Source: Ornithinicoccus hortensis (GTDB lineage Bacteria; Actinomycetota; Actinomycetes; Actinomycetales; Dermatophilaceae). From it: a DNA stretch of 64,000 nt. The position numbers and the translations under genes were made by a program. Each line of letters opens with the position of its first letter. The stretch's first letter is position 1. Shown piece after piece: positions 20,925 to 35,632 of this stretch. The DNA lies in NCBI RefSeq assembly GCF_006716185.1, contig NZ_VFOP01000001.1:372001-436000 (forward strand). The letters are read 5' to 3'. The notes below the pieces were generated by a model. The model was not told where the DNA came from, searched no databases, and saw only the letters and a program-made list of their open reading frames with translations.

Positions 20925-21045
20925 CTCCATCTTCCGGCCGACCCCGAGGGGCCGCCGCAGGATTTGGCACCTTTCCCGCGGGTTACCCCGCGGGAGGCTG
21001 CCCCGGCTTCATCGGGCCTGTCCCTCTGCCGGTCGTGATGGATTT
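20925..21045 (-). ncRNA. SAM-I (S-box) riboswitch upstream of metB
   Basis: Read on the minus strand, the region has the S-box core in order: AGAGGGACAGGCCC, GATGAAGCC, GGGGCAGCC, a long GC-rich P3-type hairpin (CCCGCGG / CCGCGGG), GGTGCCAAATCCTGC and finally GGAAGATGG. The 5' strand TCCATC (21042-21037) pairs with the 3' strand GATGGA (20931-20926) as P1. The ATG of metB is about 95 bases after the element. Known S-box elements turn expression off when SAM binds. I saw no clear terminator before metB, so translational control is possible. Confidence 0.9.
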
Positions 21046-21072
21046 CGTTCGGAAGCCTAACCCATCACGACC
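21031..21072 (-). terminator. Hairpin directly after LLM gene, sharing its 3' arm with the S-box P1
   Basis: A perfect 11-bp inverted repeat, GGTCGTGATGG at 21031-21041 and CCATCACGACC at 21062-21072, with a 20-base loop. On the minus strand the 5' arm starts on the base after the TGA of the LLM gene. No U-run follows, so it may stabilise the 3' end or act as a weak terminator of the SAM-IV operon. Its 3' arm contains the TCCATC-pairing bases of riboswitch P1, so the two structures compete. Confidence 0.6.
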
Positions 21073-22179
21073 TCAATGCGAAAGGAGACCCGCCTCACAC
21101 CGCGCCGCTAACGCAGGATCTTCGGTAGGAGTCATCGGCGCCGCGAGCGGCCGCGACGGGATCGACGCGCGCAGCGCCGGTGCCACCTCCGACTGGAACA
21201 GCTCGAGGCTGGCCCGGTGCTGGGCCCCGGTCAGCCCCTCGCCGTCGGCGGACACGTGGAGCACCTCGTGCCCGAGCTGCTCGTGGTAGCGGTGCACCTT
21301 GTCGACGACCTGCTCGGGGCTGCCGATCAGCGCCGAACTGCGCTCGACGAAGTCCTCGTAGTCCCGGAACGACGGCTCCACCCCGAGCGCCGCGAACTGC
21401 CGGGTCCGGGCCTCGTAGACCGGCCGGTAGAGCCCGACCGCCTCCTGGCTGTCCCGGGTCACCACCAGGCCGGCGGAGCCCGCACCCACCAGGGCCTCCG
21501 CGGGGTCCCGGCCGGCCGCCGCCCACTGCTCCCGGTAGTACCGGACCAGTTCGGCATACGGCCCCACCGGATGCGTAACGTTCGCCGAGAACAGCGGTTC
21601 ACCGAATTCGATCGCCAGGTCGACCGAGGCGGTGCTCGTCGCGCTGCCGTGCCACACCCGGATCGGGCGCTGCAGCGGCCGGGGCCACACCTCGGCGTCG
21701 ACCAGCGGCGGGCGGAACCGGCCGGACCAGGTGATCCGGTTGTCCCGCCAGAGCCGCCGGAACACCTCGTAGGACTCGCGGTTACGGGCCCACTGGTCCT
21801 CGGGGGTGACCTGGAAGAGCTCCCGCTGGGCCGAGCCGTTGCCCTTCCCGATGATCAGCTCGAGCCGCCCGTCGGCCAGGTTGTCCAGCGTCGCGTAGTC
21901 CCCGAAGGCACGGACCGGGTCCAACAGGCTGAGCGTGGTCACGCCGGTGAACAACCGGATCCGGCTGGTACGCGCGGCGATGTGGCTGAGCACCACGGGC
22001 GGCGAGGAGGAGATGAACGGCCGCTCGTGGCGCTCGCCCACGGCATACCCGTCGAAGCCGAGCTGCTCGGCCAGCACCGCGTTGTCAACCACCTGGCGCA
22101 GCCGCTCGTGGGTCGACAGATGGGTCCCGTTGACCGGGTCGGGGACGTGCGTGATCAGGGTGAGCGCGAGGAACTTCAC
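21073..22179 (-). CDS. LLM-class flavin-dependent monooxygenase
   Basis: 368-residue luciferase-like TIM-barrel oxygenase. It opens KFLALTLITHVPDPVNG and has DNAVLAEQLGFDGYAVGERH near residue 35, VLSHIAARTSRIRLFTGVTT near 65 and DNLADGRLELIIGKGNG near 100, the usual FMN-phosphate and barrel motifs; IGSPEQVVDKVHRYHEQLG marks the C-terminal end. These enzymes use reduced FMN supplied by a separate reductase, here presumably one of the two encoded in the same operon. The GTG start overlaps the stop of the ABC ATPase by four bases and has AAGGAG upstream. Substrate unknown; a sulfur compound is inferred from SAM-IV control. Confidence 0.87.
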   Translation of the reverse strand: MKFLALTLITHVPDPVNGTHLSTHERLRQVVDNAVLAEQLGFDGYAVGERHERPFISSSPPVVLSHIAARTSRIRLFTGVTTLSLLDPVRAFGDYATLDNLADGRLELIIGKGNGSAQRELFQVTPEDQWARNRESYEVFRRLWRDNRITWSGRFRPPLVDAEVWPRPLQRPIRVWHGSATSTASVDLAIEFGEPLFSANVTHPVGPYAELVRYYREQWAAAGRDPAEALVGAGSAGLVVTRDSQEAVGLYRPVYEARTRQFAALGVEPSFRDYEDFVERSSALIGSPEQVVDKVHRYHEQLGHEVLHVSADGEGLTGAQHRASLELFQSEVAPALRASIPSRPLAAPMTPTEDPALAARCEAGLLSH

Positions 22180-23876
22180 GCGGGGACTCCTTGGGCGTTG
22201 GGGTGCCGCGTCCCGGCGATCGCCGAGAGCAGCTCGTGGGTGTAGGGGTGCGCCGGGCGCTCGAAGACCTGCTCGGTGGGGGCGAGCTCGACGATCCGCC
22301 CCTGGCGCATGACCGCGACGTCGTGCGCGATCTGCCGGACGACGGACAGGTCGTGGGTGATGAACAGGTAGGCCAGTCCGTCCTGCGCCTGCAACTCGGC
22401 GAGGAGTTCCAGCACCTGCGCCTGCACCGAGACGTCGAGCGCCGAGACCGCCTCGTCGCAGACCACCAGGTCGGGGGACAGGGTGAGCGCCCGCGCGATC
22501 GCCACGCGTTGCCGTTGGCCGCCGGACAGCTCGGCCGGCTTGCGGGTCAGCGTCCCGCCGGGCAGCGCCACCCGGTCGACGAGGCGGGCGGCCAGCTCGC
22601 GCTGCGAGGCGCGGGTGCCGACCGAGAACGCACGCAGCGGCTCGGTGACCAGCTCCTCGACGGAGAACCGCGGGTCCAGCGACGCATACGGGTTCTGGTA
22701 GATCAGCTGCGCCCGCCGCCGCAGCTCGCGCCACGGGCGGCCCGAGGCGGTGGTGATGTCGGCGCCGTCGAAGGTGATCGTGCCGGACGTCGGGTCGGCC
22801 AGCCGCAGCACCAGCCGGGCCGTTGTGGACTTGCCCGAGCCGGACTCGCCCACCAGGGCCAGCGTGCGGCCCCGGTGCAGCTCGAAGCTGACGTCGTCGA
22901 CGGCCCGCACCACCCGCGGGCCGCTGCCCCGGGTGGCCGGGAGCGCGAAGTCCTTCACCAGGTGCTCGGCCCGGACCACGGGCGTCGCCTCCTCCGGCAC
23001 CGGCACGGACGGGGCGTATGCCGGGCCCGTCACCCGGGCGCCGAGGCCGGGCGCGCTGGCCAGGAGCCGCCGCGTGTAGGCGTCCTGCGGGTCCTCCAGG
23101 ATCTGCCGGACGGGGCCCTCCTCGACGACCAGGCCGCCCTGCATCACCACGATCCGGTCGGCCCGGTCCGCGGCCACCCCGAGGTCGTGGGTGACCAGCA
23201 GCACCGAGCTGCCCAGGTCGGCCGTCAGGGTCTCCAGGTGGTCCAGGATCCGGCGCTGCACGGTGACGTCCAGCGCGCTGGTGGGTTCGTCGGCGATCAG
23301 CAGGTCGGGGCGTCCGGCGATCGCGATGGCGATGAGCACCCGCTGCCGCATGCCGCCGGACAGTTCGTGCGGGTACTGGCGCAGCCGCACCTCGGGGCGG
23401 TCCAGCCCGACCCGCTCCAGCAGCCCCAGCGCCTCGGCCCGCGCGGCGGCCCGCGGCAGCCTGCGGTGCGCGGTGACCGCCTCGAGCACCTGCGGCCCGA
23501 TCCGCTTCACCGGGTTCAGCGAGACGCTCGGGTCCTGTGGGACGAGGCCGACCTCGCGTCCCCGGACGGCGCGCAGCCGGCGCTCGCCCCACCGGGCAAT
23601 GTCCCGTCCGCGCACCGCGATGGTGCCGCCCTCGACGGCGGCGTTCTCGGCGAGGAGCCCGATCACCGCGTGGGCCAGTGTGCTCTTGCCGGACCCGGAC
23701 TCCCCGACGAGCGCGACGACCTCACCGCGCCCGACGGCCAGGTCGACGCCCCTGAGCGCCTCCACCCGACCCCGTGAGGTCTGGTAGCTGACGCGCAGGT
23801 CACGGACCTCCAGGACGGTGTCGGTGCCGGCCGGGTCGGGCTGCCCGGCCCGGTCGGACGGCGTGCCCCGGCTCAC
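22176..23876 (-). CDS. Peptide/nickel-type ABC transporter ATPase, fused DppD-DppF form
   Basis: 566 residues with two complete ATP-binding domains. Domain 1 has Walker A GESGSGKST near residue 57, signature LSGGMRQRV and Walker B LLIADEPTSAL; domain 2 repeats these with GESGSGKST near 335, LSGGQRQRV and LVVCDEAVSAL. In classical oligopeptide importers these are separate DppD and DppF genes; the fused form is common in some bacteria. The GTG start overlaps the upstream permease stop by four bases (GTGA). It would drive uptake through the two permeases encoded upstream. Confidence 0.92.
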   Translation of the reverse strand: MSRGTPSDRAGQPDPAGTDTVLEVRDLRVSYQTSRGRVEALRGVDLAVGRGEVVALVGESGSGKSTLAHAVIGLLAENAAVEGGTIAVRGRDIARWGERRLRAVRGREVGLVPQDPSVSLNPVKRIGPQVLEAVTAHRRLPRAAARAEALGLLERVGLDRPEVRLRQYPHELSGGMRQRVLIAIAIAGRPDLLIADEPTSALDVTVQRRILDHLETLTADLGSSVLLVTHDLGVAADRADRIVVMQGGLVVEEGPVRQILEDPQDAYTRRLLASAPGLGARVTGPAYAPSVPVPEEATPVVRAEHLVKDFALPATRGSGPRVVRAVDDVSFELHRGRTLALVGESGSGKSTTARLVLRLADPTSGTITFDGADITTASGRPWRELRRRAQLIYQNPYASLDPRFSVEELVTEPLRAFSVGTRASQRELAARLVDRVALPGGTLTRKPAELSGGQRQRVAIARALTLSPDLVVCDEAVSALDVSVQAQVLELLAELQAQDGLAYLFITHDLSVVRQIAHDVAVMRQGRIVELAPTEQVFERPAHPYTHELLSAIAGTRHPNAQGVPA

Positions 23877-24823
23877 CGGAAGCCACCCCACTCCCCGTCC
23901 AGGGCCTTGGAGACCCGGTTCACCGCGAGCACCGTGGCGGCGATGGTCAGTCCGGGCAGCGTGGTCAGCCAACTGGCGGTCGCCAGGAAGTTGCGCCCCT
24001 CGGACACCAGCGACCCCCACTCGGGGGCCGGTCGCGGCGCCCCGTAGCCCAGGAAGCTCAGCGCCGAGACGGCCAGGATCGCCATCCCGAACTCGAGCAC
24101 CGCCAGCGCCAGGATCGGGCCGGAGGCGTTGGGCAGCACGTGCCAGCGCAGCGTCACGTGCCAGCGGGACCCGAGGGAGCGGGCGGCCTCGACATACGTG
24201 GCCTGGCAGACCCGGAGGGTCTGCGACCGGGCGATCCGGGCGAAGGTGGCGATGCTGCCGACGGCGACGGCGATCGCCACGTTGGTGGGGCCGAAGCCGA
24301 GGGCGGCGATCAGCGCCAGCGACAGCAACAGGGACGGGATCGCCATCAGCACGTCGACGACGCGCATGACGACGTTGTCGACCCACCCGCCGAGGAAGCC
24401 GGCGGTCACCCCGAGCAAGCCGCCGACGACCAGGGCCAGGCCGACGGCGACCAGCGCGGTGCGCAGGGACAGGGCGGTGCCGTGGACGACCCGGGTGAAC
24501 AGGTCCCGACCGAGGTGGTCGGTACCGAACAGGTGGGCCGCGCTGGGTGCCTGGAGCTTCTCGGCGGTGATCCCGGTCTCCGGGTCACCCGGCGCGACGA
24601 GGCCGGGGGCGAAGGCGGCCACCACGACCACCAGGAGCAGCGCGAGGCTGAGCACGAGGCCGGGACGGCGCACCGCGAACCGGACCGCCTTGGGCCACCG
24701 GGCCGCGGGGAGAGCACGCGACCGGGACCGCGCCGGCTGCTGCAGCGCGCCGCCGGCGGGTGCCGGCCGGTCACCGCCCTGGGCGGGTGGGTCGAGCAGG
24801 ACCGTGGTCTGGGTGAGCGACAT
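23873..24823 (-). CDS. Peptide/nickel-type ABC transporter permease DppC
   Basis: 316 residues. A long polar N-terminus (about 55 residues, Pro/Ala/Arg rich) precedes the first helix (GLVLSLALLLVVVVAAFAPG). The motif HLFGTDHLGRDLFTRVVHGT near residue 95 is the DppC signature, and the ATPase-docking EAA loop is YVEAARSLGSRWHVTLRWHV near 215. It follows the DppB permease after a 13-base gap and overlaps the ATPase gene. It forms half of the transmembrane channel of the SAM-IV-controlled importer. Confidence 0.91.
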   Translation of the reverse strand: MSLTQTTVLLDPPAQGGDRPAPAGGALQQPARSRSRALPAARWPKAVRFAVRRPGLVLSLALLLVVVVAAFAPGLVAPGDPETGITAEKLQAPSAAHLFGTDHLGRDLFTRVVHGTALSLRTALVAVGLALVVGGLLGVTAGFLGGWVDNVVMRVVDVLMAIPSLLLSLALIAALGFGPTNVAIAVAVGSIATFARIARSQTLRVCQATYVEAARSLGSRWHVTLRWHVLPNASGPILALAVLEFGMAILAVSALSFLGYGAPRPAPEWGSLVSEGRNFLATASWLTTLPGLTIAATVLAVNRVSKALDGEWGGFR

Positions 24824-24836
24824 GGGGCTCCCCCTC

Positions 24837-25784
24837 TCAGGAGTAGGACCGGCCGACGGCGACCCGGGGGTCGGCCAGCGGCAGGACGAGGTCGACGAGC
24901 AGGTTGGTCAGGACGAAGACCGTGGCACCGAGGACGACGACGCCCTGGACCACCGGGAGGTCCTGGAAACTGACCGAGCTGACCGTGAGCCGGCCGACGC
25001 CGGAGCGGCTGAACACCGTCTCCACCACGACCGAGCCGGCGATCAGGTTGCCGATCACCAGGCCGAGGACGGTCAGCACCGGCAGCGAGGCGTTGCGCAG
25101 CGCGTGCCGGGCGTGGATCGCGATCCTGCCGATCCCCTTGGCCCGGGCGGTGACGACATACGGCTCGCGCAGCGCGTCCTGCAGGCAGGTGGCCAGCACC
25201 TGGGCGATCAGCGCACCGATCGGCACGGCCAGCGTCACCGCCGGCAGCACCACCGACCGCCACCCCTGGTCGCCCATCGCCGGGAACAGGCCGAAGGTGA
25301 AGCTGAACCACTGCACCAGCACCAGCCCGACCCAGAAGGTCGGCAACGACACCGCCACCGGCGGCAGCGCCAGCAGGAACTGCCGGACCCAGCCGACCGA
25401 GGTGTAGGTCGCCACCAGGGCCAGCCCACCGCCGATCAACACGGACAGCACGAGCGCGCTGGCGGCCAGCTGCACGGTGCTCGGCAGGGCCTGGGCGATG
25501 GCGGCGGTCACCGCCTGCCCGGACTGGACGGACGCCCCGAGGTCACCGTGCAGCGCGGACCACAACCGGGTGCCGTACTGCACCAGGAACGGGTCGTCGA
25601 AGCCGTACTGCGCGCGCAGCGCGGCCAGCTCCTCCGCGCCCACGGGGGCGCCCTCCATCCCGCCGGAGGCCATCGCCGCCACCGGGTCGCCGGGCAGCAG
25701 GTAGAGCACGACGAAGGAGACCGTGTAGGCGGCCCACAGCACCGCGACCGCCAGGCCGAGCCGGAGGAGCACGTAGCGAGCCAT
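24837..25784 (-). CDS. Peptide/nickel-type ABC transporter permease DppB
   Basis: 315 residues with six hydrophobic segments. The start ARYVLLRLGLAVAVLWAAYT and FVVLYLLPGDPVAAM is the standard DppB N-terminus, and the EAA-like loop reads REPYVVTARAKGIGRIAIHA near residue 205. It lies two bases from the binding-protein stop and pairs with DppC. The cargo of such importers ranges from peptides to nickel, opines and glutathione-like thiols; the monooxygenase neighbours suggest a sulfur-containing ligand here. Confidence 0.91.
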   Translation of the reverse strand: MARYVLLRLGLAVAVLWAAYTVSFVVLYLLPGDPVAAMASGGMEGAPVGAEELAALRAQYGFDDPFLVQYGTRLWSALHGDLGASVQSGQAVTAAIAQALPSTVQLAASALVLSVLIGGGLALVATYTSVGWVRQFLLALPPVAVSLPTFWVGLVLVQWFSFTFGLFPAMGDQGWRSVVLPAVTLAVPIGALIAQVLATCLQDALREPYVVTARAKGIGRIAIHARHALRNASLPVLTVLGLVIGNLIAGSVVVETVFSRSGVGRLTVSSVSFQDLPVVQGVVVLGATVFVLTNLLVDLVLPLADPRVAVGRSYS

Positions 25785-25787
25785 CGA

Positions 25788-27491
25788 TCAGCGCTCGATC
25801 CAGGCGTCGTAGAGCTGGACCCGGGAGCCGGCGTCGAAGGCGACGCCTTGCACGGTCGGTCCGACGCCCAGGACCGTGGTCAGCTCGACGACCGGCACGA
25901 CGTGCCGCTCGGTCACGATCTGCGCCTGGGCCCGGGCGGCCAGCTCAGCGCGCTCGGCCGGGTCCGCGGCCCCCGCCTGAGCCTCCAGCACGTCGTCCAG
26001 GTCGGACGGCTCGAGGCGGTAGCTGTTGGCCAGGCCGGTGTGGAACGAACCGCGCAGGATGTCGGCGTCGGCACGGGTGATGTTGCCCCAGTTGGCGTCG
26101 AAGTTGCCCTCGGCCACGGTGGCGGCCCAGTCCGCGACCTGGCCCTCGGTCAGGGTCACCTCGATGCCCACGGACGCCAGCTGCTGCTGGATCAGCTCCA
26201 GGGTGGGGGCGTTGGTCGCGGCGTTGTTGAACCAGAGGATGTCGAAGGACGCCCGCTGTCCGTCCTTGGCGTAGACCCCGTCCTCACCCTTGGCGTAGCC
26301 CGCCTCGGTCAACGCGGCCTCCGCCGCGACCGGGTCGAACCGTAGGTGTTCGGACTGGTCGGCATACAGCGGGGTGGTGGAGGCCAGGACGCTCGTGGCG
26401 GGAACGTTGTAGGTGGTGTAGACGGTCTCCACGATCTCTTCACGGTTGATGGCCAGCGCGATCGCCTCGGTCACCGCCGGGTCGGACAGCACCTCGTTGT
26501 CGTGGTTGACGTAGAGGCCGAACGGGATGCCGGGGTTGGCCCGGGCCAGCAACTGCGCGTCCGCCGCCTTGAGCGGCTCCTCGTCCTGCGGGGCGATGTT
26601 GCCGATGACGTCGACCTGGCCGGACTGCAGCGATCCGGACCGGACGCCGGACTCGGGCACGACGGAGAACTCCAAGGTGTCCAGATAGGCCTCCCCGGTG
26701 TGCTGCCACAAGGAGGATCCCCAGTCGTAGCCCTCCCGCTTAGCCAGCGTGATCGAGCTGTTCGGCTCGTAGTTCTCCAGCGTGAACGGGCCGGACCCGA
26801 CGACGCTGGCGCACCGCTCGTCGTCGGACTGTGCGGCCGACTCCGGCGACAGCAGCCCGAGGGTATGCGTCGAGGTCGCCTGCAGGAACTGGGCGTTGGG
26901 CCGGTCGAACTCGACGGTGAAGGTGCGGTCATCCTCGACGGTGGTGCCGGCGTAGCCGTCGAGGTAGCCCTTGATCAGGGCGCCACGCGCCCCGATGTCC
27001 GTGGCCCGGTCCAGGTTGGTCTTGACCGCCTCGGCGTCCACCGGGGTGCCGTCGCTGAAGGTGGCCCCCTCCTGCAGATGGAAGGTGTAGGCGCTGGCGT
27101 CGTCGTTGACCTCCCACGACTCGGCGAGCCAGGGGACGATCTCCCCGGTCTCCGGGTCCTGGTCGGTCAGGGAATCCACGAGGTGGCGGATCGAGTAAAT
27201 GGTGTCGTTGCTGCCGACCTGCTGCGGGTCGACGCAGCCCTGGTCGGATCCGACGGCAAACCGGAGGGCACCGCCGGGCGTGACCTCTTCGGGTGCCGAC
27301 GCCGGCAGCGCGCTGGCCGCCGCGCCGTCGCCGCCCTCGCCGTCGGTCTCTGTGGCTCCTCCTGGCGCGCATGCCGCGAGGAGGAGTGTGGCACCGAGGG
27401 CGCCGGGGGCGAGGAGGGTATGCCGGGAGGCCCGGTGCCGGGCGGCGCCGGCCCGGAACGTGGGTCGGGTGGTGTGGTTCATGGGTGTCAC
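25788..27491 (-). CDS. ABC transporter substrate-binding lipoprotein, family 5
   Basis: 567-residue family-5 binding protein. The N-terminus is arginine-rich (RHRASRHTLLAPG), then a hydrophobic stretch and lipobox LLAAC with the cysteine at residue 41; an acidic low-complexity linker follows. Domain motifs include GGALRFAVGSDQGCVDPQQ, YTFHLQEGATFSDGTPVDAE near residue 130 and SGPFTLENYEPNSSITLAKR near 240. The GTG at 27491 overlaps the flavin reductase stop by four bases; an ATG nine bases later has GGTGA upstream and is an alternative. It selects the imported substrate for DppBC and the fused ATPase. Confidence 0.9.
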   Translation of the reverse strand: MTPMNHTTRPTFRAGAARHRASRHTLLAPGALGATLLLAACAPGGATETDGEGGDGAAASALPASAPEEVTPGGALRFAVGSDQGCVDPQQVGSNDTIYSIRHLVDSLTDQDPETGEIVPWLAESWEVNDDASAYTFHLQEGATFSDGTPVDAEAVKTNLDRATDIGARGALIKGYLDGYAGTTVEDDRTFTVEFDRPNAQFLQATSTHTLGLLSPESAAQSDDERCASVVGSGPFTLENYEPNSSITLAKREGYDWGSSLWQHTGEAYLDTLEFSVVPESGVRSGSLQSGQVDVIGNIAPQDEEPLKAADAQLLARANPGIPFGLYVNHDNEVLSDPAVTEAIALAINREEIVETVYTTYNVPATSVLASTTPLYADQSEHLRFDPVAAEAALTEAGYAKGEDGVYAKDGQRASFDILWFNNAATNAPTLELIQQQLASVGIEVTLTEGQVADWAATVAEGNFDANWGNITRADADILRGSFHTGLANSYRLEPSDLDDVLEAQAGAADPAERAELAARAQAQIVTERHVVPVVELTTVLGVGPTVQGVAFDAGSRVQLYDAWIER

Positions 27492-28051
27492 CGATCAGGG
27501 GTGGGGTCGGATGCAGGAAGGGCCGGGGCGATCTCGCGATAGCCACCGTCGTGGTAGGCGAGTGGGGGTCCCGGGGTGTGCTCGAGGTCGACCACCTCGG
27601 CCAGCACGACGGCGCTGTCGCCGACGTGCGTGCGGCTGCGGACCGCGAGGATGAGACGGGCCAGGGCACGGTCGAGGACGGGCAGACCGTGCGGCCCGGA
27701 GGCCCAACTTCCGGCAGCGGCGAACCGGTCGATGCCGCTGGTGGCGAACGCCGTGGCCACGTCCTGCTGGTCCCGGTGGAGCAGGTGGGCCGCCACGTGG
27801 CCGGCGCGCTGGAGGGTCGGCCAACTGGACGCGCCCCGGGAGATGTTGAAGCTGACGTAGAGCGGGTCGACCGACACCGACACCAGGGAGGTGGCGGTGA
27901 AACCGACCGGGCGCAACGGCCCACCGGCGGTGATCACGCTCACCGTGCCGACCGCGCTGCGGAAGGCGGCCCGGAAGGCGCTCGCGTCCGGGCCCGGCTC
28001 CCCGGTCAGGCCGGTCGCCCCATCGTGGGCGGTGAACGCGTGGGCGGTCAT
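27488..28051 (-). CDS. Flavin reductase (FMN-binding split-barrel, NtaB/HpaC type)
   Basis: 187 residues of the flavin reductase-like split barrel. The typical sequence FRAAFRSAVGTVSVITAGG leads to PVGFTATSLVSVSVDPLYV and SFNISRGASSW, the FMN-binding region, with HLLHRDQQDVATAFA later. These enzymes pass reduced FMN to two-component monooxygenases. The gene is overlapped at both ends by operon neighbours, so it is likely made in proportion to the LLM oxygenases. The operon also encodes a flavodoxin-like FMN reductase, so two unrelated reductase folds are present. Confidence 0.88.
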   Translation of the reverse strand: MTAHAFTAHDGATGLTGEPGPDASAFRAAFRSAVGTVSVITAGGPLRPVGFTATSLVSVSVDPLYVSFNISRGASSWPTLQRAGHVAAHLLHRDQQDVATAFATSGIDRFAAAGSWASGPHGLPVLDRALARLILAVRSRTHVGDSAVVLAEVVDLEHTPGPPLAYHDGGYREIAPALPASDPTPDR

Positions 28052-28629
28052 CGTCCTCCTCCCGTCACGACGGGCTGTTCGGCTCGGACGCCCGCTGCGG
28101 TCAGCGCACGCTGCAGGGTGCCCGCGTGCTCGCCCACCCAGTCGGCGACGACCGTCTCAGCGTCCGGTACCTCCGGCTCGAGCAGCGACACCGCCCCAGA
28201 CGGGACCTGCGCGCCGAGCTCCTCGAGGAGCAGCTGCAGCGTCGCGGCCACGGAGTCACGGTGATCGGGCTTGCCGGCGATGGCCACCGGCACGGCCACC
28301 ACCCCCGCGAGGTCGCCGGCCTGGTAGGTGTCCAGGAAGATCTTCAGCAACCCGGTGTAGGTGCCCTTGTAGGTCGGGGTCGCCACGACGAGGAGCCGGG
28401 CCGAGCGGACCGCACCCCACGGGTCCGGATGCGGTGCCGCCGCCGTGGCCGGCTCGGCGGTGAACGTGATGCCGACGAGCTCGGCCAGTTCCAGCACCTC
28501 CGGTGTGTCACCGAGGTCCAGGTCGGGCAGGGCTGCCCGGACCTGTTCCACGACGGTGCCGGCCAGGGCGGAGGTGCGGGACCCCGCGCGCGGGTTCCCG
28601 ACCAGGACCACGGTCTGTGCGGTGCTCAT
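28048..28629 (-). CDS. NADPH-dependent FMN reductase, flavodoxin-like (SsuE/MsuE type)
   Basis: 193 residues. The FMN phosphate loop is VVLVGNPRAGSRTSALA at residues 7-23, and PTYKGTYTGLLKIFLDTY near residue 85 is the SsuE/MsuE signature. The protein supplies FMNH2 to sulfonate-type monooxygenases. The ATG overlaps the stop of the NtaA-type monooxygenase by four bases, and its own stop overlaps the next reductase. A longer open frame continues upstream but overlies the oxygenase gene. Confidence 0.9.
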   Translation of the reverse strand: MSTAQTVVLVGNPRAGSRTSALAGTVVEQVRAALPDLDLGDTPEVLELAELVGITFTAEPATAAAPHPDPWGAVRSARLLVVATPTYKGTYTGLLKIFLDTYQAGDLAGVVAVPVAIAGKPDHRDSVAATLQLLLEELGAQVPSGAVSLLEPEVPDAETVVADWVGEHAGTLQRALTAAGVRAEQPVVTGGGR

Positions 28630-30023
28630 GCGGACTCCTTCCGGACCCCGGCTGCCGCCGCGGTCTCCCAGTCGGTGGCGGGGCGGGCAGCGGACAGCCC
28701 CAGCTGGTCGCGCAGGGTCGACCCCTCGGCATAGGAGGCGCGCAGCGCACCCCGCTCCACCAGGAGCGGCACGACCTGGTCGACGAACGCGTCCAGGCCC
28801 CCGGGGGTGATGTGCGGCACGAGGATGAACCCGTCGCTGACCTCGGTCTGCACCGCGTCGATGAGAGCATCGGCGATCGTCTCCGGGCTGCCCACGAAGG
28901 CCTGCCGCTGGCCGCGCTCGATGGCGACCTCGCGCAGCGTGAGGTTCTTCTCCTCCGCGAGGGCCCGCAGGCGGGTGACCTCCGCGCGGGCGTCGTCGAC
29001 GTGCCGGGCCCGGCCCTGGATGATGCTCGAGGGGCCGACCTCGGGCTCCACGTCGGGCAGCGGCCCGTCGGGGTCGTAGCCGGAGAGGTCCCGGTTCCAC
29101 ACCTGCTCCAGGAGCAGGATCGCGGTCTGCCCGCTGACCTGCTGGCGGCGGATGTCGGCGGCAAGCTCCGCGGCCTCCTCGTCGGTGTCGCCGACTACGA
29201 AGGTGACCCCGGGGAGGATCTTGAGGTCGTCGGGGCGACGGCCGTAGCGGGCGAGCCGCGACTTGACGTCGCGGAAGAAGGCCCGCCCCGCCTCCGGGGT
29301 GCCGTGCCGGGTGAAGATCACGTCCGCGGTGCGTGCCGCGAACTCGCGTCCCCCGTCGGAGTCGCCCGCCTGGAAGATCACCGGGTGCTGTTGGGGCGAG
29401 CGCGGCACGTTGAAGTGGCCCGCGATGTCGAAGTGGTCGTCGTGGTAGCCGAACTCCCCGACCGTCCCGTCCGCCAGGAAGCGCCCGTGCTCCTGGTCGC
29501 CGGCGACCGCGTCGACCTGCCAGGAGTCCCAGAGGTGCCGGGCCGCCCGGACGATGCTCTCGGCGCGCTCGTAGCGCAGCTCCCGGTCGAGGTAGCCGCC
29601 GCGGCGGAAGTTCTCGCCGGTGAAGGCGTCGGAGCTGGTGACCACGTTCCACCCGGCGCGGCCGCCGGACAGGTGGTCCAGGGTCGCGAACTGGCGGGCC
29701 ACCTCATACGGCTCGTTGAAGGTGGCGTTGATGGTGCCGACCAGCCCGAGGTGGTCGGTGACCCCGGCGAGCGCGGCGAGCACCGGGAGGGTGTCCGGCC
29801 GACCGACGACGTCGAGGTCGTGGATCAGGCCGCGCTGCTCGCGCAGCCGCAGGCCCTCGGCGAGGAAGAGGAAGTCCAGGTGCCCCCGCTCGGCAGCCCG
29901 AGCGAACCGGCGGAAGGAGTCGAACTCGATGTGGCTGCCGGAGCGCGGGTCGCTCCAGACGGTGGTGTTGTTCACCCCGGGGAAGTGCGCCCCGAGGATG
30001 ACCTGCTTGGGGGGTGTGCTCAT
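28626..30023 (-). CDS. NtaA/SnaA/DszA-family FMN-dependent monooxygenase
   Basis: 465 residues, the length of the nitrilotriacetate / pristinamycin / dibenzothiophene-sulfone monooxygenase group, longer than SsuD. Motifs: VILGAHFPGVNNTTVWSDPR at the start, FDSFRRFARAAERGHLDFLF near residue 35, HLSGGRAGWNVVTSSD near 118 (a family hallmark), and PVIFQAGDSDGGREFAA near 210. Members oxidise C-N or C-S bonds using FMNH2. The corynebacterial SeuA/SeuB proteins for sulfonate esters belong to this group, making an organosulfur substrate reasonable. AAGGA precedes the ATG. Confidence 0.9.
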   Translation of the reverse strand: MSTPPKQVILGAHFPGVNNTTVWSDPRSGSHIEFDSFRRFARAAERGHLDFLFLAEGLRLREQRGLIHDLDVVGRPDTLPVLAALAGVTDHLGLVGTINATFNEPYEVARQFATLDHLSGGRAGWNVVTSSDAFTGENFRRGGYLDRELRYERAESIVRAARHLWDSWQVDAVAGDQEHGRFLADGTVGEFGYHDDHFDIAGHFNVPRSPQQHPVIFQAGDSDGGREFAARTADVIFTRHGTPEAGRAFFRDVKSRLARYGRRPDDLKILPGVTFVVGDTDEEAAELAADIRRQQVSGQTAILLLEQVWNRDLSGYDPDGPLPDVEPEVGPSSIIQGRARHVDDARAEVTRLRALAEEKNLTLREVAIERGQRQAFVGSPETIADALIDAVQTEVSDGFILVPHITPGGLDAFVDQVVPLLVERGALRASYAEGSTLRDQLGLSAARPATDWETAAAAGVRKESA

Positions 30024-30047
30024 GTCGGTGTCCTTGGAGTTGGGTGG

Positions 30048-31286
30048 TCAGGCGCTGGCGGCGTAGCGGTTGACGGCGGCCGGCAGGCCGAGCCGTTCGC
30101 GCAGCGTGGAGGGGCCGTATGCGGTGCGGAACAGTCCGGCGCGCTGGAGCGCCGGGACGAGGGCGTCGGTGATCGCCGGGAGGTCGATCGCGTGCTCGGC
30201 GGGGCGGAGCCGGAAGCCGGCATACCCGAGGGCGTGCCACCGCTGGACCAGGTCGGCCAGCGCTGCCGCGTCCCCGGCGAAGACCAGGGCGTCGGAGGTG
30301 AACTCCTCCCCGGCGACCTCGTCGAGTTGCCTCAGCCGCGCCGCCCCGTCGCCGTGCTCCGGGGTGGACAGCACCACCTCGAGGTCGGCGAAGACCTTGA
30401 GCGGGGTGTCGGCGGTCCGGTGCTGCCCCTCCAGCTCGCGGACCTGCGCCAGGATGGCCGCGGCGTCCTCGTCGTCCCGGGGCGTGACGTAGAGGACGTC
30501 GGCGCCGCGGGCGGCCAGTTCGTAGGGGATCGGCTGGTGGCCGAGCGCGGTGACGACCGGCTGCCCCTGCGGCGGGCGCGGGGTGATCGAGGGGCCCTTG
30601 ACCGAGAAGTATTCGCCCTCGAAGTCGATGTAGTGCAGCTTGTCCCGGTCGATGAACCGCCCGGTGGCGGCGTCGCGGATCTCGGCACCGTCCTCCCAAC
30701 TGTCCCACAGCCGGCGGACCACCTCGATGACGTCGCCCGCCTCGTCGAACAGGCTGCGCAGCTGCGCCTGCGCCTCCGGGGAGGCGAGGTCGCGTGCGTC
30801 ACGGACGTCCCCGAACGGCGCGGCCCGACGACCGACGTGCGCCGCCTCGGCCGGGCGGGCAGAGACCTGCACCCGCCAACCGGCCCGTCCGAGGCTGACG
30901 TGGTCCAGGGTCGCCAGGTTCTTGGAGACGTGGAACGGCTCGGTGTGCGTGGTGGTGATCGTCGGCACGATGCCGATCCGTTCGGTGCGGGTGGCGACCC
31001 AGCTGGCGACCAGGCTCGCGTCGAGGCGGCCGACCAGCCGCGAGGTGGTCGGCACCGGGGCGGGACCGAACGGGGTGCCGGCGTGCAGCGCCAGGCTGTC
31101 CTCGATGGTGATGAAGTCGATCAGTCCCCGCTCGGCGGTCAGCGCCTGATCGGTCCAGTATCGACCGGTGAAGACCTCGGTGGCCCGGGAGCCGGTCCGC
31201 CGCCAGGAGGCGGGGTGCCAGCCGGTGCCGTCCAGGGCGATGGCGAGGTGCACGGGGGTGTCGGAAGTGGGCAGCGTCGAAGTCAA
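30048..31286 (-). CDS. LLM-class monooxygenase, first gene of SAM-IV operon (TTG start)
   Basis: 412-residue relative of the NtaA/DszA group, with LAIALDGTGWHPASWRRTGS at the N-terminus, LATLDHVSLGRAGWRVQVSA near residue 128 and PPQGQPVVTALGHQPIPYEL near 235. It is the first gene after the SAM-IV leader. The start is TTG at 31286, supported by AGGAGATC seven bases upstream and by lack of a nearby ATG or GTG with a ribosome site. The gene product should work with the operon's flavin reductases; substrate unknown. Confidence 0.85.
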   Translation of the reverse strand: MTSTLPTSDTPVHLAIALDGTGWHPASWRRTGSRATEVFTGRYWTDQALTAERGLIDFITIEDSLALHAGTPFGPAPVPTTSRLVGRLDASLVASWVATRTERIGIVPTITTTHTEPFHVSKNLATLDHVSLGRAGWRVQVSARPAEAAHVGRRAAPFGDVRDARDLASPEAQAQLRSLFDEAGDVIEVVRRLWDSWEDGAEIRDAATGRFIDRDKLHYIDFEGEYFSVKGPSITPRPPQGQPVVTALGHQPIPYELAARGADVLYVTPRDDEDAAAILAQVRELEGQHRTADTPLKVFADLEVVLSTPEHGDGAARLRQLDEVAGEEFTSDALVFAGDAAALADLVQRWHALGYAGFRLRPAEHAIDLPAITDALVPALQRAGLFRTAYGPSTLRERLGLPAAVNRYAASA

Positions 31287-31542
31287 CGAGATCTCCTGTG
31301 GGTGCAGGGCGGTCCGTCGTCGGACCGGGAGGTGGGGTCGGGGACCCCGGGTTTAAGGGGGAAGGTGCTGCGTGCGGGACGTCGGTCAGCGGTGCTGACA
31401 GGCCCCTCGGGCCGAGCGCATCCGAGCGGGCCCGGCGTCCTGACATCGGGCGGACAGGTTGCGCTGCTGCTCCGGGATGACGCTGAACAAGGGAGTGACC
31501 TCCGTGGCTGTCGCACTTGCCGATCGCGGTATTGCGACCGGC
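31287..31542 (-). promoter_or_regulatory. 250-nt leader between SAM-IV aptamer and first structural gene
   Basis: No coding sequence is evident. On the minus strand three compact hairpins are visible: GTCAGC-ACC-GCTGAC (31399-31385), GGGGTC-CCC-GACCCC (near 31340-31354) and CGGTCCG-ACGA-CGGACCG (31327-31310), the last ending 23 bases before the TTG. None has a U-run. They are candidate expression-platform elements of the riboswitch, either hiding the ribosome site or acting as Rho or intrinsic-like stops. Confidence 0.45.
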
Positions 31543-31622
31543 CCGGTCCTCACCTGGAGCACCCCACTGCGAGAGAGGGTTGCCGCCCAGCAAGCCAGGG
31601 CTTGACGCTGGGGCTCATGACC
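31543..31622 (-). ncRNA. SAM-IV riboswitch, leader of the organosulfur operon
   Basis: Minus-strand sequence follows the SAM-IV consensus closely: GGTCATGAGCCCCAGCGTCA, AGCCC, a TGG/CTTGCTGG hairpin, GGCAACCCTC, then GTGGGGTGCTCC and AGGTGAGGACC. The 5' GGTC (31622-31619) pairs with the 3' GACC (31548-31545) to close the structure. SAM-IV is known from actinomycetes upstream of sulfur genes and represses when SAM is bound. It begins about seven bases after a promoter -10, so the transcript starts essentially at the aptamer. Confidence 0.92.
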
Positions 31623-31628
31623 GAGATG

Positions 31629-31659
31629 AACATAACACGGCATTCGGATGATCCGTCAA
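31629..31659 (-). promoter_or_regulatory. Promoter of the SAM-IV organosulfur operon
   Basis: Minus-strand TTGACG (31659-31654) and TATGTT (31634-31629) with a 19-base spacer. The expected start point coincides with the first base of the SAM-IV aptamer. The second SAM-IV unit shows the same geometry. Confidence 0.65.
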
Positions 31660-31709
31660 TAGCGTTATGCATCTCGGCAGCGTGACCTACCTCACCCCCG
31701 CCTCCCCGA

Positions 31710-31800
31710 CCAGACGCGCGACCGGTCGGCCCCACCACCCCACCAGACGCGCGACCGGTCGGCCCCACCACACGACCAGACGCGCGACCGGGCGATCCCG
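31710..31800. repeat. 33-bp tandem repeat, locus B
   Basis: Three units starting at 31710, 31743 and 31776, exactly 33 bases apart, each beginning CCAGACGCGCGACCGG and continuing with CGGCCCCACCAC. Unlike the other arrays it lies between two divergent promoters. The units are nearly identical to locus A in the same orientation and to locus C inverted. Confidence 0.88.
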
Positions 31801-31819
31801 ACGATCGGCATACAAAGCC

Positions 31820-31857
31820 TTGACGGCCTCACCGCCGACCCCTACTGTCCAATTGGA
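31820..31857 (+). promoter_or_regulatory. Promoter of secreted hydrolase gene with overlapping palindrome
   Basis: TTGACG (31820-31825), a 17-base spacer and TACTGT (31843-31848) form a strong promoter. The perfect 10-bp palindrome TCCAATTGGA (31848-31857) starts at the last base of the -10 and covers the expected transcription start, a classical repressor position. MarR- or GntR-type regulators use similar AT-centred sites; no regulator gene is adjacent. Confidence 0.55.
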
Positions 31858-31935
31858 TAGGCCACTAGGCCAAGTCCTGTGCGGACACCAGGGGGTATCA
31901 ATGGGGTGCCCTCGTTCCACGAAGGGGAACAGCAC

Positions 31936-33918
31936 ATGAAGGCACGCACCATCTGGGGACGGGGAATCTCCGCGACCCTGCTCATCGGAGTTCCAGCCCT
32001 GCTCCCAGTAGCGGCCCATCCCGGGGTGATCACGCCCGAGGCCGGCTCCACCGACGCCGACCCTCACCTAGAGATGGTGGTCGAATCACGCACTCCGCTG
32101 GAGGGCGTCGACTCCGACTACGAACGGCTCACCGGCCACGTCTACGGAGAGGTAGACCCCGATGACCCGGCGAACGCCGCCATCGTGAACCTGGACAAGG
32201 CGCCCGTGAATGACCAGGGGATGGTCGAGTACAGCGTCGACTTCGAGATCCACAAACCGACCGACATGAGCGAGGGCAACGGCACCCTGCTGTATGAGGT
32301 GGTCAACCGGGGTAGGCCGCTGATCCCGGCCTTCGTCAACGGCGAGGACACCCTGCTCTACGACGAAGGATTCACCCTCGTGTGGTCCGGGTGGCAGGGC
32401 GACCTCCCGGAGTCCGAGGCCACCCTCAACGCCGACTTTCCCGTCGCGACGGACGACGGAGAGCCCATCGTCGACCTCGTCCGCGACGAGTTCGTCGACC
32501 AGGGCACGGGGACCTGGACCGGAACGCTGAGCTACCCGGCAGCATCCCTGGACCGCGAGGAGGCCTCGCTGACGATCCGGGAGAAGGAGAGCGACCCGCG
32601 CCAGCCCATCGACGACTGGCAATACGTCAACGACCAGCAGATCGAGGTGACCCACCCCGGCGCACCGTTCGACTCCGGCGCCATCTTCGAGTTCATCTAC
32701 CCCGGGACCGAGCCGACGGTGCTCGGGCTCGGCCTGCTCAGCACCCGGGACATCAACTCGTTCCTGCGGTTCGCCGACCAGGACAAGGAGGGCAACCCGA
32801 ATCCGCTCGGCGGCGAGTCGATCGACAATGCCGTGGCGCTCGGGGTGTCCCAGAGCGGGCGCTACCTCCGGGAGTTCATCTACGAAGGCTTCAACCAGGA
32901 CCTCGACGGCCGACAGATCTTCGACGGGGCGATGCCGATCATCGCGGGCTCCCGCCGCATCTGGCTCAACTACGAGTTCGCCCAGGTCGGTCGTTGGTCC
33001 AAGCAGCACGAGGAGCACCTGCAGCGCGGCGACCAGTTCCCGTTCACCTACCCCACCATCCAGGACCCGCTGACCGGCGAGACCGACGGGATCCTGCAGG
33101 CCTGCAGCGCCACGCAGACCTGCCCCAAGATCATGCACGTGGACGGCGAGTACGAGGTATGGGGTGCCCGCGGCTCCCTCGTGGTGACCGACGGGGACCC
33201 GGCCGGACCGACCGACGTGACGATGCCGGACACGGTCCGGCTCTACATGGTGGCGGGCACCCCGCACGGCGGGGCGAACGCCATCCTGCCGCCGAACGAC
33301 GACCTCGGGATCTGCCAGCAGGTCAACACCCCGCTCGGCACGCAGGCGGTCATCCGATCGCTGGTCCTGCGCCTGGACAGCTGGACGGCAGACGGGGTCA
33401 CCCCGCCGGCCAGCAACTACGGCTCGGCCGACGCCGGCACGCTCGTCGGCTCGGCGCAGGACGAGACGCGCTTCCCCGATATCCCGGGCGTGACCTACAA
33501 CGGACTGTTCAACTACCTGAGGGTCACCGACTACGCCACGACGCCTCCGACCGAGGGTGCCGAGTATGCCGTCCTGGTGCCCCGGGTCGATGTCGACGGC
33601 AACTCCCGGGCCGGGATCCGGTTGCCCGCTCTGGAGGCGCCGCTGGCCACCTACACCGGGTGGAACCACCGGTCGGCCGGCAACGCGGAAGGCGAGCTGT
33701 GCGGCTCCTTGGGATCCTTCATCCCGTTCGCCGCGACGAAGGCGGAGCGGATCGACAACGGCGACCCGCGCCGGTCGCTCGAGGAGCGCTACAGCTCCGA
33801 CGACCGGTATGTGTCTCGGTACTCGACCTGGGCACACTCCCTGGTCCGCAAGGGCTACCTACTCCCGGCCGATGCCCAGTCGATGATCGAGGAGGCGAAG
33901 GGCATCTCCGTCCGCTGA
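31936..33918 (+). CDS. Secreted alpha/beta-hydrolase domain protein (Abhydrolase_10-like)
   Basis: 660 residues with a Sec signal (KARTIWGRG, then ISATLLIGVPALLPVAA, cleavage near residue 27). The body carries conserved blocks LLYEVVNRGRPL near residue 105, FTLVWSGWQGDL near 140 and the nucleophile elbow GVSQSGRYLREFIYEGFNQD near 310, where Ser of SQSGR is the probable catalytic residue; GAMPIIAGSRR follows. I place it in the large alpha/beta hydrolase domain family of unknown substrate. The ATG at 31936 (AAGGGG upstream) gives the cleanest signal peptide; an upstream in-frame start does not. Only one full-length gene lies between arrays B and C. Confidence 0.82.
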   Translation: MKARTIWGRGISATLLIGVPALLPVAAHPGVITPEAGSTDADPHLEMVVESRTPLEGVDSDYERLTGHVYGEVDPDDPANAAIVNLDKAPVNDQGMVEYSVDFEIHKPTDMSEGNGTLLYEVVNRGRPLIPAFVNGEDTLLYDEGFTLVWSGWQGDLPESEATLNADFPVATDDGEPIVDLVRDEFVDQGTGTWTGTLSYPAASLDREEASLTIREKESDPRQPIDDWQYVNDQQIEVTHPGAPFDSGAIFEFIYPGTEPTVLGLGLLSTRDINSFLRFADQDKEGNPNPLGGESIDNAVALGVSQSGRYLREFIYEGFNQDLDGRQIFDGAMPIIAGSRRIWLNYEFAQVGRWSKQHEEHLQRGDQFPFTYPTIQDPLTGETDGILQACSATQTCPKIMHVDGEYEVWGARGSLVVTDGDPAGPTDVTMPDTVRLYMVAGTPHGGANAILPPNDDLGICQQVNTPLGTQAVIRSLVLRLDSWTADGVTPPASNYGSADAGTLVGSAQDETRFPDIPGVTYNGLFNYLRVTDYATTPPTEGAEYAVLVPRVDVDGNSRAGIRLPALEAPLATYTGWNHRSAGNAEGELCGSLGSFIPFAATKAERIDNGDPRRSLEERYSSDDRYVSRYSTWAHSLVRKGYLLPADAQSMIEEAKGISVR

Positions 33919-33952
33919 CGCCGACCGGGCGCCCGTCGGCAGGACGGCGGGC

Positions 33953-34084
33953 GCCCGGTCACGCGTCCGGTCGCCCCTAGAGACAGCCCGGTCGCACGTC
34001 CGGTCACCCCCTGGGGCCGCCCGGTCGCACGTCCGGTGGGGTGGTGGGGCCGCCCGGTCACACGTCCGGTCGGGTGGTGGGGTC
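33953..34084. repeat. 33-bp tandem repeat, locus C
   Basis: Four units starting at 33953, 33986, 34019 and 34052, each exactly 33 bases apart, with the core GCCCGGTCGCACGTCCGGT. The last two carry a GGGGTGGTGGGG tail. The array is the reverse complement of loci A and B and lies between convergent genes, reaching the stop region of the following LLM gene. Confidence 0.88.
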
Positions 34085-35216
34085 AGGGGCGGGCGAACCA
34101 GGCGGCGGCCAGCAGCTCGTGGGAACGCGCCCGCGCCTCGTGGTCATGCGTGATCGTCGTGATCAGCAGCTCGTCGGCGCCGGTCGCGGCCTGCAGCACG
34201 CCGAGCTGGTCGGCGACCCTCTCCGGACTCCCCACGAACCGGGTCCGGAGGCGGTCGTCCACCAGGGCCTCTTCCTCGGGCGGCAGCGGGTCGGCGGCGG
34301 CCTCCTCGGGCGTGGGATACGGGATCGCCCCGCGGCCGGTGCGGATCGAGGCCACCCACTGCCCGTAGCCGGCCGCCAGGTATTCGGCCTCGTCATCGGT
34401 GGGGGCCACGACCACGTCCGCGGAGACCGTCACGTGCGGTGCCGTCAGCCGGTCACCGGGGACGAAGCTGTCCCGGTAGTGGCCGACGGCGTCGATCACC
34501 CCGGACGGCGCGACGTGGTAGTTCGCGCCGAACGGCAACGCGCGCTGCCCGGCGAGCGCCGCGGACTCGCCCTTGGAGCTCCCCAGGATCCACAGCTCGG
34601 GGTCGCTCGGGGTGTCGGCTGCGGCCCGGTCGAGCGACAACTCCCCGACCTCCAACGTCCCGCCGAGGATGTCCTGGATCGTGGTGACGATCTCGGCATA
34701 CCCCTCCGGCTGCGCCCCCTTCAGGTAGAGCAACGACTGGCTCGCGCGGAACCGGGGACCGGACAGCAGCGGACCGAGCGCCACCGGCGCTGGGACGAGC
34801 AGCCCCTCGGGGGTGGTGTACTCCTGCGCCGCGGGGCGCGGCGGCAGACCCGTCGGTTTGTCAGCCCCCGGCGCCCGGCGCAGTCCGGAACGCCCCAGGC
34901 CCAGGTCGATCCGTCCCGGGAAGGCCGCCGCCAGGAGCGCGAACTCCTCGGCGATCGACAGGGCGGTGCGGTGCCCGGCCAGCACCGCGCCCGAGCCGAG
35001 CCGGATCCGCGTGGTGTCCCCCGCCGTCAGCGCGATGGTCAGCGCCGGGGACGACCCGACGACCCCGGGGTTGAGGTGGTGCTCGGCGAACCAGTAGCGG
35101 TGGTAGCCGGCCGCCTCGGCCCGGCGCACCAGGTCTCGGCTGTTGGTCAGCGCCTGTGCGGCGGTGCCGCCGCTGCTGACGGGGACGAGGTCGAGGACAC
35201 CCAACGGGACGGGCAT
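34083..35216 (-). CDS. LLM-class monooxygenase (MsnO8-like) under SAM-IV control
   Basis: 377 residues of the luciferase-like group with MsnO8-type N-terminus PLGVLDLVPVSSGGTAAQAL and RAEAAGYHRYWFAEHHLNPG near residue 35; GSGAVLAGHRTALSIAEEFA near 75 and FPGRIDLGLGRSG near 98 are FMN-barrel motifs, and VGSPERVADQLGVLQAATGA ends the barrel. A SAM-IV riboswitch lies in its leader and AGGAG precedes the ATG. It is a single-gene unit without its own reductase, so it probably draws FMNH2 from the large operon 4 kb away. Confidence 0.87.
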   Translation of the reverse strand: MPVPLGVLDLVPVSSGGTAAQALTNSRDLVRRAEAAGYHRYWFAEHHLNPGVVGSSPALTIALTAGDTTRIRLGSGAVLAGHRTALSIAEEFALLAAAFPGRIDLGLGRSGLRRAPGADKPTGLPPRPAAQEYTTPEGLLVPAPVALGPLLSGPRFRASQSLLYLKGAQPEGYAEIVTTIQDILGGTLEVGELSLDRAAADTPSDPELWILGSSKGESAALAGQRALPFGANYHVAPSGVIDAVGHYRDSFVPGDRLTAPHVTVSADVVVAPTDDEAEYLAAGYGQWVASIRTGRGAIPYPTPEEAAADPLPPEEEALVDDRLRTRFVGSPERVADQLGVLQAATGADELLITTITHDHEARARSHELLAAAWFARP

Positions 35217-35271
35217 GAGAACTCCTGGGACAGATCGGCATACGTGCTTGCGGACCCGGGTAGGCCAGCCT

Positions 35272-35355
35272 GGTCATCACCTGGAGCACCCCGTCACCAT
35301 GCGGAAGGGTTGCCGTCCGGCTCAGCCAGGGCTTGGACACCGGAACTCTCGACCG
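35272..35355 (-). ncRNA. SAM-IV riboswitch, second copy
   Basis: Minus-strand elements in consensus order: GGTCGAGAGTTCCGGTGTCC, AAGCCCTGG, CTGAGCCGGACGGCAACCC, GGTGACGGGGTGCTCCAGG and TGATGACC. The 5' GGTC (35354-35351) pairs with the 3' GACC (35275-35272). The core GGCAACCC and GGGGTGCTCCAGGTGA match the copy at 31.5 kb. The element ends about 55 bases before the ATG of the LLM gene with no terminator visible, so translational control is likely. Confidence 0.9.
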
Positions 35356-35361
35356 GCACCG

Positions 35362-35392
35362 ACAATACCGACCCGACCGCGGGCGCCGGCAA
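35362..35392 (-). promoter_or_regulatory. Promoter of the second SAM-IV unit
   Basis: Minus-strand TTGCCG (35392-35387) and TATTGT (35367-35362), spacer 19 bases, with the aptamer beginning about seven bases downstream. The same 19-base spacer and distance occur at the other SAM-IV promoter. Confidence 0.55.
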
Positions 35393-35623: not shown

Positions 35624-35632
35624 GTGGTCCGA

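Follow-up and report, generated by a model that had tools for sequence, protein, structure and literature searches.

What substrate is taken up and oxidised by an operon that combines three luciferase-like monooxygenases (LLMs), two unrelated flavin reductases and a complete peptide-type ATP-binding cassette (ABC) importer under an S-adenosylmethionine (SAM) riboswitch? The operon belongs to Ornithinicoccus hortensis (GCF_006716185.1, a genome of 3.94 Mb in a single contig) and lies in a stretch of 64,000 nt, here called the window (NZ_VFOP01000001.1, positions 372,001-436,000). The initial annotation described it as a SAM-controlled system for organosulfur import and oxidation with an unknown substrate. 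The first part of that description is still the best reading, and we have narrowed the second to S-substituted cysteine derivatives, because LLM2, the second oxygenase of the operon, is kin to CmoJ and because a Streptomyces form of the locus carries an amino-acid importer and an acetyltransferase of the GNAT family; the substrate itself is still a prediction. With moderate confidence, we propose a regulon, repressed by SAM, that salvages S-substituted cysteine derivatives whose amino group is blocked beforehand, either as an N-acyl compound (a mercapturate) or in a peptide. The system resembles an actinobacterial counterpart of the salvage route known from Bacillus, with a different importer. 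The parts and the logic are already known, while the combination and its control are new. Our literature search, which left most subscription journals outside, found nothing on the gene set, the function of the neighborhood or the actinomycete oxygenase pair, and the sulfur-omics papers, in the portions available to us, do not describe the gene set.

All nine genes lie on the minus strand, from 31286 down to 21073, without an internal stop in any of them. Of the eight junctions, five are 4-nt overlaps, and the remaining three leave gaps of 24, 3 and 13 nt. Reading along the minus strand from 31622 to 18657, the order is SAM-IV riboswitch, LLM1, LLM2, FMN reductase of the flavodoxin type, split-barrel flavin reductase, family-5 lipoprotein, two permeases, a fused two-domain ATPase, LLM3, SAM-I riboswitch, metB and a MetF-like gene. 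Riboswitches were called at the Rfam gathering thresholds (38 bits for SAM-IV, RF00634; 44.4 bits for SAM-I, RF00162), and the SAM-IV element of the main operon (31508..31622, minus strand) scores 108 bits, which bears out the nine-gene operon under SAM-IV control as first annotated. The gene families were also named correctly at that stage, with the refinement that the ATPase is one fused gene, so that the importer consists of four genes. Beyond the operon a lone oxygenase, LLM4, has its own SAM-IV element (35239..35354, minus strand, 71.7 bits); both SAM-IV matches in the window span the full model, positions 1-116 of 116. LLM1 starts 221 nt past the end of the main SAM-IV element, so the aptamer lies off the LLM1 ribosome-binding site. 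A terminator and promoter consensus scan of 20800-35800 found neither, and the leader of the main operon folds no better than shuffled sequences (z -0.69).

The chemistry is suggested first by LLM2 (28626..30023, minus strand), which matches TIGR03860 at 415 bits, over the cut-off. Its best solved relative is YtnJ/CmoJ (1tvl/6ask) at 288 bits, with 170 of 415 aligned positions identical (41%), followed by nitrilotriacetate (NTA) monooxygenase (265 bits), chain B of 7e36 (231) and BdsA (227). By homology only, LLM2 would thus be classed as a CmoJ-type C-S monooxygenase. The Bacillus route begins with acetylation of an S-alkylcysteine, after which CmoO forms the sulfoxide and CmoJ cleaves it to an aldehyde and N-acetylcysteine sulfenic acid, which is then reduced and deacetylated (PMC10863075; PMC12757645). 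The substrates of CmoJ are accordingly given as N-acetyl-S-alkylcysteine sulfoxides, made by prior CmoO sulfoxidation (PMC10863075). In the related succinocysteine route, ScmK is reported to show no detected activity on the non-acetylated substrate (PMC12757645).

LLM1 (30048..31286, minus strand) is a divergent oxygenase of the NtaA group, with 86 bits to PF00296 and 243 bits to TIGR03860, under its cut-off of 280. LLM2 was found within 400 nt on the same strand in 129 of the 133 LLM1 matches in our 146 sources, and this near-constant pairing suggests that the two are partner subunits; PDB entry 7e36 holds two different LLM-type chains in one entry. The AlphaFold2 model of LLM1 (predicted local distance difference test score, pLDDT, 82.7) has BdsA as its closest fold, then NTA monooxygenase and YtnJ/CmoJ. 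Since both LLM1 and LLM2 fall in a group with BdsA/DszA and DmoA, one could instead suppose that the operon draws sulfur from sulfones, sulfonate esters or sulfonates, with enzymes of the SfnG, DszA or SeuABC type and a peptide-type importer recruited for the purpose. We regard this as unlikely, as LLM2 scores CmoJ above BdsA or DmoA. LLM3, whose nearest family is CE1758, and the rhodanese-type sulfurtransferase seen in some importer-LLM neighborhoods would fit such a system, as would a Streptomyces plasmid run, L059, in which the LLM1 genes adjoin an SsuA-type ABC importer, an aryl-sulfate sulfotransferase and a sulfatase-like gene. However, among six annotated plasmid loci examined around LLM1, an SsuA-type gene appears in L059 alone (no search for one was made in the remaining loci), and O. 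hortensis already has SfnG with a flavin-reductase-like gene under a separate SAM-I element. The window system also differs from SsuABCDE: its importer is family 5 by Pfam and NCBIfam, as first annotated, and none of the four window LLMs reaches the NCBIfam cut-off for SsuD.

That the Streptomyces form has an amino-acid importer and a GNAT also argues against sulfones and for an amino acid. In Streptomyces sp. NBC_01558 a single run contains an amino-acid ABC importer, a GNAT, LLM1, LLM2, LLM3 and LLM4, and it adjoins genes for homoserine acetyltransferase, O-acetylhomoserine sulfhydrylase and SsuE. This run resembles the scheme of acetylation, breakdown and deacetylation (PMC12757645). Its LLM4 relative, at 54% identity, stands in the same run as LLM1 and LLM2. 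In the window, LLM4 (34083..35216, minus strand) is a member of the MsnO8 family (TIGR03558, 284 bits, cut-off 167) and a candidate sulfoxidase in the role of CmoO (YtmO), which we take to belong to the same family. That LLM4 is part of the set, as supposed from the start, is further supported by Ornithinimicrobium cavernae, the closest relative among named genomes (LLM1 69% identical), which has all nine genes in identical order, with LLM4 divergent from the operon and the two SAM-IV elements back to back.

Relatives of the locus carry one of two importers. Our 146 sources are the window and 145 other loci (L numbers), most of them chosen for LLM1 and 11 for the binding protein, and we define a run as matches to the query set on the same strand with gaps of up to 1.5 kb, so that a longer unrecognised stretch breaks it. 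The 133 LLM1 runs divide into 54 with only a polar amino-acid ABC importer, 19 with only the family-5 importer, 1 with both and 59 with neither; some loci stop near LLM1. A GNAT gene is present in 34/54 runs of the amino-acid form, 0/19 of the family-5-only runs, 12/59 of the importer-less runs and the single run with both importers (1/1, L175). As first counted by genus, the figures were 7/8 for the amino-acid form vs 0/12 for the family-5 form; the eight included two Streptomyces plasmids, and among the twelve one genus may have been counted twice, so that merging gives 5/6 vs 0/11 (Fisher p ~0.001). Neither the Streptomyces GNAT nor the g18 GNAT has a relative in the operon, and the O. hortensis genome has no clear relative of the Streptomyces-form GNAT (best 27.9 bits over 62 residues). 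It is the absence of this GNAT from the 19 family-5 runs, and of any clear relative of it from the genome, that leads us to propose that the substrate of the family-5 importer arrives with its amino group already blocked. The two exchangeable importers may mark free and N-blocked substrates. In a quick LLM2 tree (71 rows, with no more than three for each combination of genus, importer and GNAT class), the family-5 label, set against all other rows, changes at least 9 times, the shuffled mean being 14.7. Starred branches force 6 of these changes, and leaving out the importer-less rows lowers the number to 5. From these changes, the oxygenase pair has probably stayed the same while its importer was replaced on more than one occasion.

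The importer is encoded by a substrate-binding lipoprotein (SBP_bac_5; 25788..27491), permease B (24837..25784; BPD_transp_1, PF00528 and PF19300), permease C (23873..24823; BPD_transp_1, PF00528, 100 bits) and the ATPase (22176..23876; PF00005, ABC_tran, in two stretches, with oligo_HPY), all on the minus strand. The lipoprotein matches PF00496 at 266 bits, its best NCBIfam model is TIGR04028 (334 bits, cut-off 468.5), and it matches the GsiB and NikA models below their cut-offs. Such a peptide-type importer could instead bring in sulfur-containing peptides, such as glutathione-type conjugates, lanthionine or oxidised-methionine peptides, with the oxygenases acting on the peptide or on the amino acids freed from it, and a peptide bond, like acetylation, would keep the amino group blocked. 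We doubt this strongly, however, since family scans found no peptidase among the nine genes and family-5 binding proteins take many non-peptide ligands. The AlphaFold2 model of the lipoprotein, built from a 9-row alignment, is too poor for reading a ligand pocket (pLDDT 50.6). A profile of the lipoprotein matched many family-5 proteins, the best being 5u4o, for which no ligand is named, and at a stricter limit it matched none.

Under the preferred explanation, salvage of amino-blocked cysteine thioethers, low SAM would release expression through the SAM-IV and SAM-I elements, as expected for these riboswitch classes. The family-5 importer would bring in a cysteine thioether with a blocked amino group, N-acetylated (a mercapturate) or in a peptide. 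By the precedent of CmoO, LLM4 would convert the thioether to its sulfoxide, and LLM2, with LLM1 as its likely partner, would cleave the C-S bond as CmoJ does; the homology to CmoJ is observed and the activity is predicted from it. Reduced FMN (FMNH2) would come from the two flavin reductases, judging by their families. An M20 hydrolase encoded elsewhere on the chromosome would then strip the acyl group, and MetB and the MetF-like protein would pass the recovered sulfur to methionine. LLM3 might carry out a further oxidation or act on a second substrate, which is a guess. This gives the oxygenase pair a testable substrate class, and it suggests that salvage of S-alkylcysteines, as studied in Bacillus, extends to actinomycetes.

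Several observations weigh against this explanation. For LLM4, the CmoO role is assigned at family level. GNAT is also absent from 20/54 amino-acid-importer runs and 47/59 importer-less runs, so its absence is weak evidence by itself, and the L175 run combines both importers with a GNAT. A GNAT gene (Acetyltransf_3) lies in the window at 35633-36217, upstream of the second SAM-IV element, and could acetylate; it has no sequence kinship to the Streptomyces-form GNAT, and its relatives lie near loci L045 and L047 of one other genus. The operon has no deacetylase, all 15 M20 hydrolase matches in the genome being outside the window. SAM-IV was found in only 3 of the 19 family-5-only runs (the window, O. 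cavernae and Blastococcus L120), and the surroundings of L059 fit general sulfur scavenging equally well. A point in favor is that the related importer of Pantoea is grouped with an LLM and an M20 amidohydrolase; the best relatives of that amidohydrolase in the O. hortensis genome are 38% and 35% identical.

Where would blocked cysteine thioethers come from? We propose the products of mycothiol conjugate amidase as a source of mercapturates, with peptide-bound cysteine thioethers as the alternative. The product of this amidase is a mercapturate, the N-acetylcysteine S-conjugate, which is released to the medium (PMC4267739), and O. hortensis encodes the enzyme (465 bits, cut-off 277). This opens the somewhat doubtful possibility of a community-wide mycothiol cycle, in which mercapturates that actinobacteria cut from mycothiol conjugates and release are re-imported by a peptide-type importer and broken down by a CmoO/CmoJ-like set, with no need for an acetyltransferase and under SAM-riboswitch control. 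In the literature searched, we found no report of bacteria drawing their sulfur from mercapturates. If true, the idea would give a fate to the excreted end product of mycothiol detoxification, as well as enzymes for stripping groups from cysteine-conjugated xenobiotics.

Compared with the CmoO/CmoJ system of B. subtilis (ytn cluster), the window has in common an NtaA-group monooxygenase of the CmoJ type and a second flavin monooxygenase, LLM4, with a putative sulfoxidation role, and the Streptomyces form shares in addition an amino-acid ABC importer and a GNAT. The Bacillus importer is presumably of the amino-acid type, unlike the family-5 importer of the window; the window operon also has neither GNAT nor deacetylase among its nine genes, and it adds LLM1, LLM3, two flavin reductases and SAM-IV control. 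The one Peribacillus plasmid record read (L217), out of three listed, contained no ytn-like cluster. The scm (yxe) pathway for S-(2-succino)cysteine in B. subtilis is similar in using a flavin monooxygenase, ScmK, on an N-acetylated cysteine thioether, but its cluster includes both an acetyltransferase and a deacetylase.

The initial annotation held that such oxygenases are not linked to Dpp-type importers, and this was not supported, as records of Pantoea, Agrobacterium, Ketogulonicigenium and Streptomyces show the two together, and NCBIfam has models for a binding protein and an LLM of this kind (TIGR04028 and TIGR04027, named for KPN_01854 and KPN_01858). Pantoea agglomerans (L222) has the same arrangement of binding protein, two permeases and two-domain ATPase followed by an LLM. 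The window proteins score under both cut-offs (binding protein 334 vs 468.5 bits; LLM3 85 and LLM4 45 vs 412.9), and the Pantoea neighborhood has one LLM, a CMD-domain protein and the M20 amidohydrolase, with no NtaA pair or flavin reductase annotated. A family-5 importer with an LLM is found also in Ketogulonicigenium and on a Streptomyces plasmid, both with a sulfurtransferase, and Agrobacterium has the importer with two proteins annotated as LLMs, the second related to LLM2 at 30%. The importer of Rhizobium acidisoli (L226) has no annotated LLM, and a partial LLM2 relative lies just upstream. Importer-plus-LLM neighborhoods occur in several phyla. The suggested corynebacterial lead is weak, in that membership of the CE1758/CE1759 families was rejected, with LLM3 at 232 of 479 bits (TIGR04036) and the FMN reductase at 40 of 176 (TIGR04037). 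LLM3 itself (21073..22179, minus strand) matches PF00296 at 251 bits, and its best solved relative is 2i7g. The FMN reductase (28048..28629; FMN_red, PF03358, 65.5 bits) is SsuE/MsuE-like, below both equivalog cut-offs, and the split-barrel protein (27488..28051; Flavin_Reduct) matches PF01613 at 105 bits, both being on the minus strand.

SAM seems to control methionine synthesis and the use of sulfones as well as the nine-gene operon, judging from the gene sets behind the SAM-IV and SAM-I elements of the genome. There are three SAM-IV matches, two in the window and one (L053, G000:C1:843000-862900, 9110-9226) before metY-metX-type genes for O-acetylhomoserine sulfhydrylase and homoserine acetyltransferase (6247-8819). 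The last agrees with the actinomycete SAM-IV regulon, as do the strong RF00634 scores, and the window differs from it in that SAM-IV precedes import and oxidation genes besides methionine biosynthesis. Two SAM-I matches exceed the cut-off. The one in the window (20924..21044, minus strand, 73.7 bits) precedes metB and the MetF-like gene, confirming that prediction; metB (19622..20830, minus strand) encodes a Cys/Met pyridoxal phosphate enzyme (PF01053, Cys_Met_Meta_PP, 436 bits), and the MetF-like protein (18657..19625, minus strand) has a weak and partial match to PF02219 (MTHFR; 26.1 bits, cut-off 24, residues 172-265 only). The other SAM-I (L219, G000:C1:928000-942000, 10916-11004) precedes the flavin-reductase-like gene and SfnG (8882-10610; SfnG 592 bits, cut-off 383). 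A weaker third match (40.5 bits) lies before a putative ABC ATPase and two lipoprotein-like genes, recognised by sequence look only. The unit with SfnG, a dimethylsulfone monooxygenase, is a second SAM-controlled LLM operon in O. hortensis, whose genome has 24 matches to PF00296, at least two of which are fragments of one gene, LLM4.

Similar control recurs in relatives. Of the first 19 same-order loci, 9 have an Rfam SAM-IV match and 10 lack one. A second model, built from 16 elements, 3 of them from the O. hortensis genome, gave 41 matches in 80 named-genome loci outside the building set. Among the 80 named-genome LLM1 runs, 34 have SAM-IV upstream, 29 of these with an amino-acid importer, and the figure for all 133 LLM1 runs is 47; at L195 and L196 SAM-IV precedes a family-5 importer without LLM1 in the run. 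An Rfam scan of 26 loci (27 including L053) found SAM-I before the importer in Rhodococcus aetherivorans L126 and in L040. Homoserine acetyltransferase and O-acetylhomoserine sulfhydrylase genes adjoin the gene set in six loci (L054, L075, L085, L107, L132, L205). We weighed these findings against a sulfur-free substrate, an aminopolycarboxylate or aromatic compound, with the riboswitch mirroring only the balance of one-carbon and methionine metabolism; the NtaA group does include NTA, ethylenediaminetetraacetate (EDTA), alkane and hexachlorobenzene oxygenases. With SAM-IV or SAM-I recurring with the gene set in several genera and those two genes adjoining it in six loci, we consider that explanation very improbable.

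LLM1, counted at E values up to 1e-60, occurs in 32/297 genomes of the order (12/94 genera) and 88/394 sampled genomes of the class (24/138 genera). Among those listed, neither the single genome of the same genus nor any of the 19 from the same family has LLM1, which is thus patchily distributed. Strong relatives of the binding protein (E up to 3e-100) are present in 31 of the 394 genomes, and LLM1 is found in 29 of those 31 vs 59 of the 363 others (Fisher p 7e-19, uncorrected for kinship and treating both searches as a single draw). In other genomes, LLM pair, riboswitches and importer recur together beyond chance. In the annotated records read, the genes of the oxygenase pair bear generic names only.

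A DUF1684 gene accompanies 10 of the 19 family-5 runs vs 1/54 and 1/59 of the others (for example L036, 10937-11743); it was not found in the O. hortensis genome, and its protein has only two solved relatives, both uncharacterised. In the window, a plus-strand alpha/beta hydrolase gene (PF20091, 31879-33918) lies between the main operon and LLM4. It has no relative among the 145 other loci searched, and for this reason it looks like an insertion between two SAM-IV units. The O. cavernae leader after SAM-IV (L060, 9673-9852) has a short open reading frame (ORF) ending in a run of cysteines, polycysteine-like, and a second, cysteine-sensing control is possible there. A conserved polycysteine leader was considered and dropped: a scan of 155 sources gave 58 cysteine-rich ORFs in 3.04 Mb, of which only seven lie in the 5.5 kb upstream of an LLM1 and share its strand, and the window ORF has two cysteines. 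In Streptomyces cadmiisoli (L055, 11769-11879) an annotated putative leader peptide directly precedes LLM1, where the 16-element model found no SAM-IV. Directly before its SAM-IV and LLM1, L040 has a class V aminotransferase gene that carries a separate SAM-IV (7648-9155), and L042 has a relative in the same place. In loci of one genus (L044, L045, L047, L048, L049), SAM-IV is directly followed by an additional short LLM1-like gene, ahead of LLM1 or the importer; in L044 (7803-8897) this gene encodes 315 aa.

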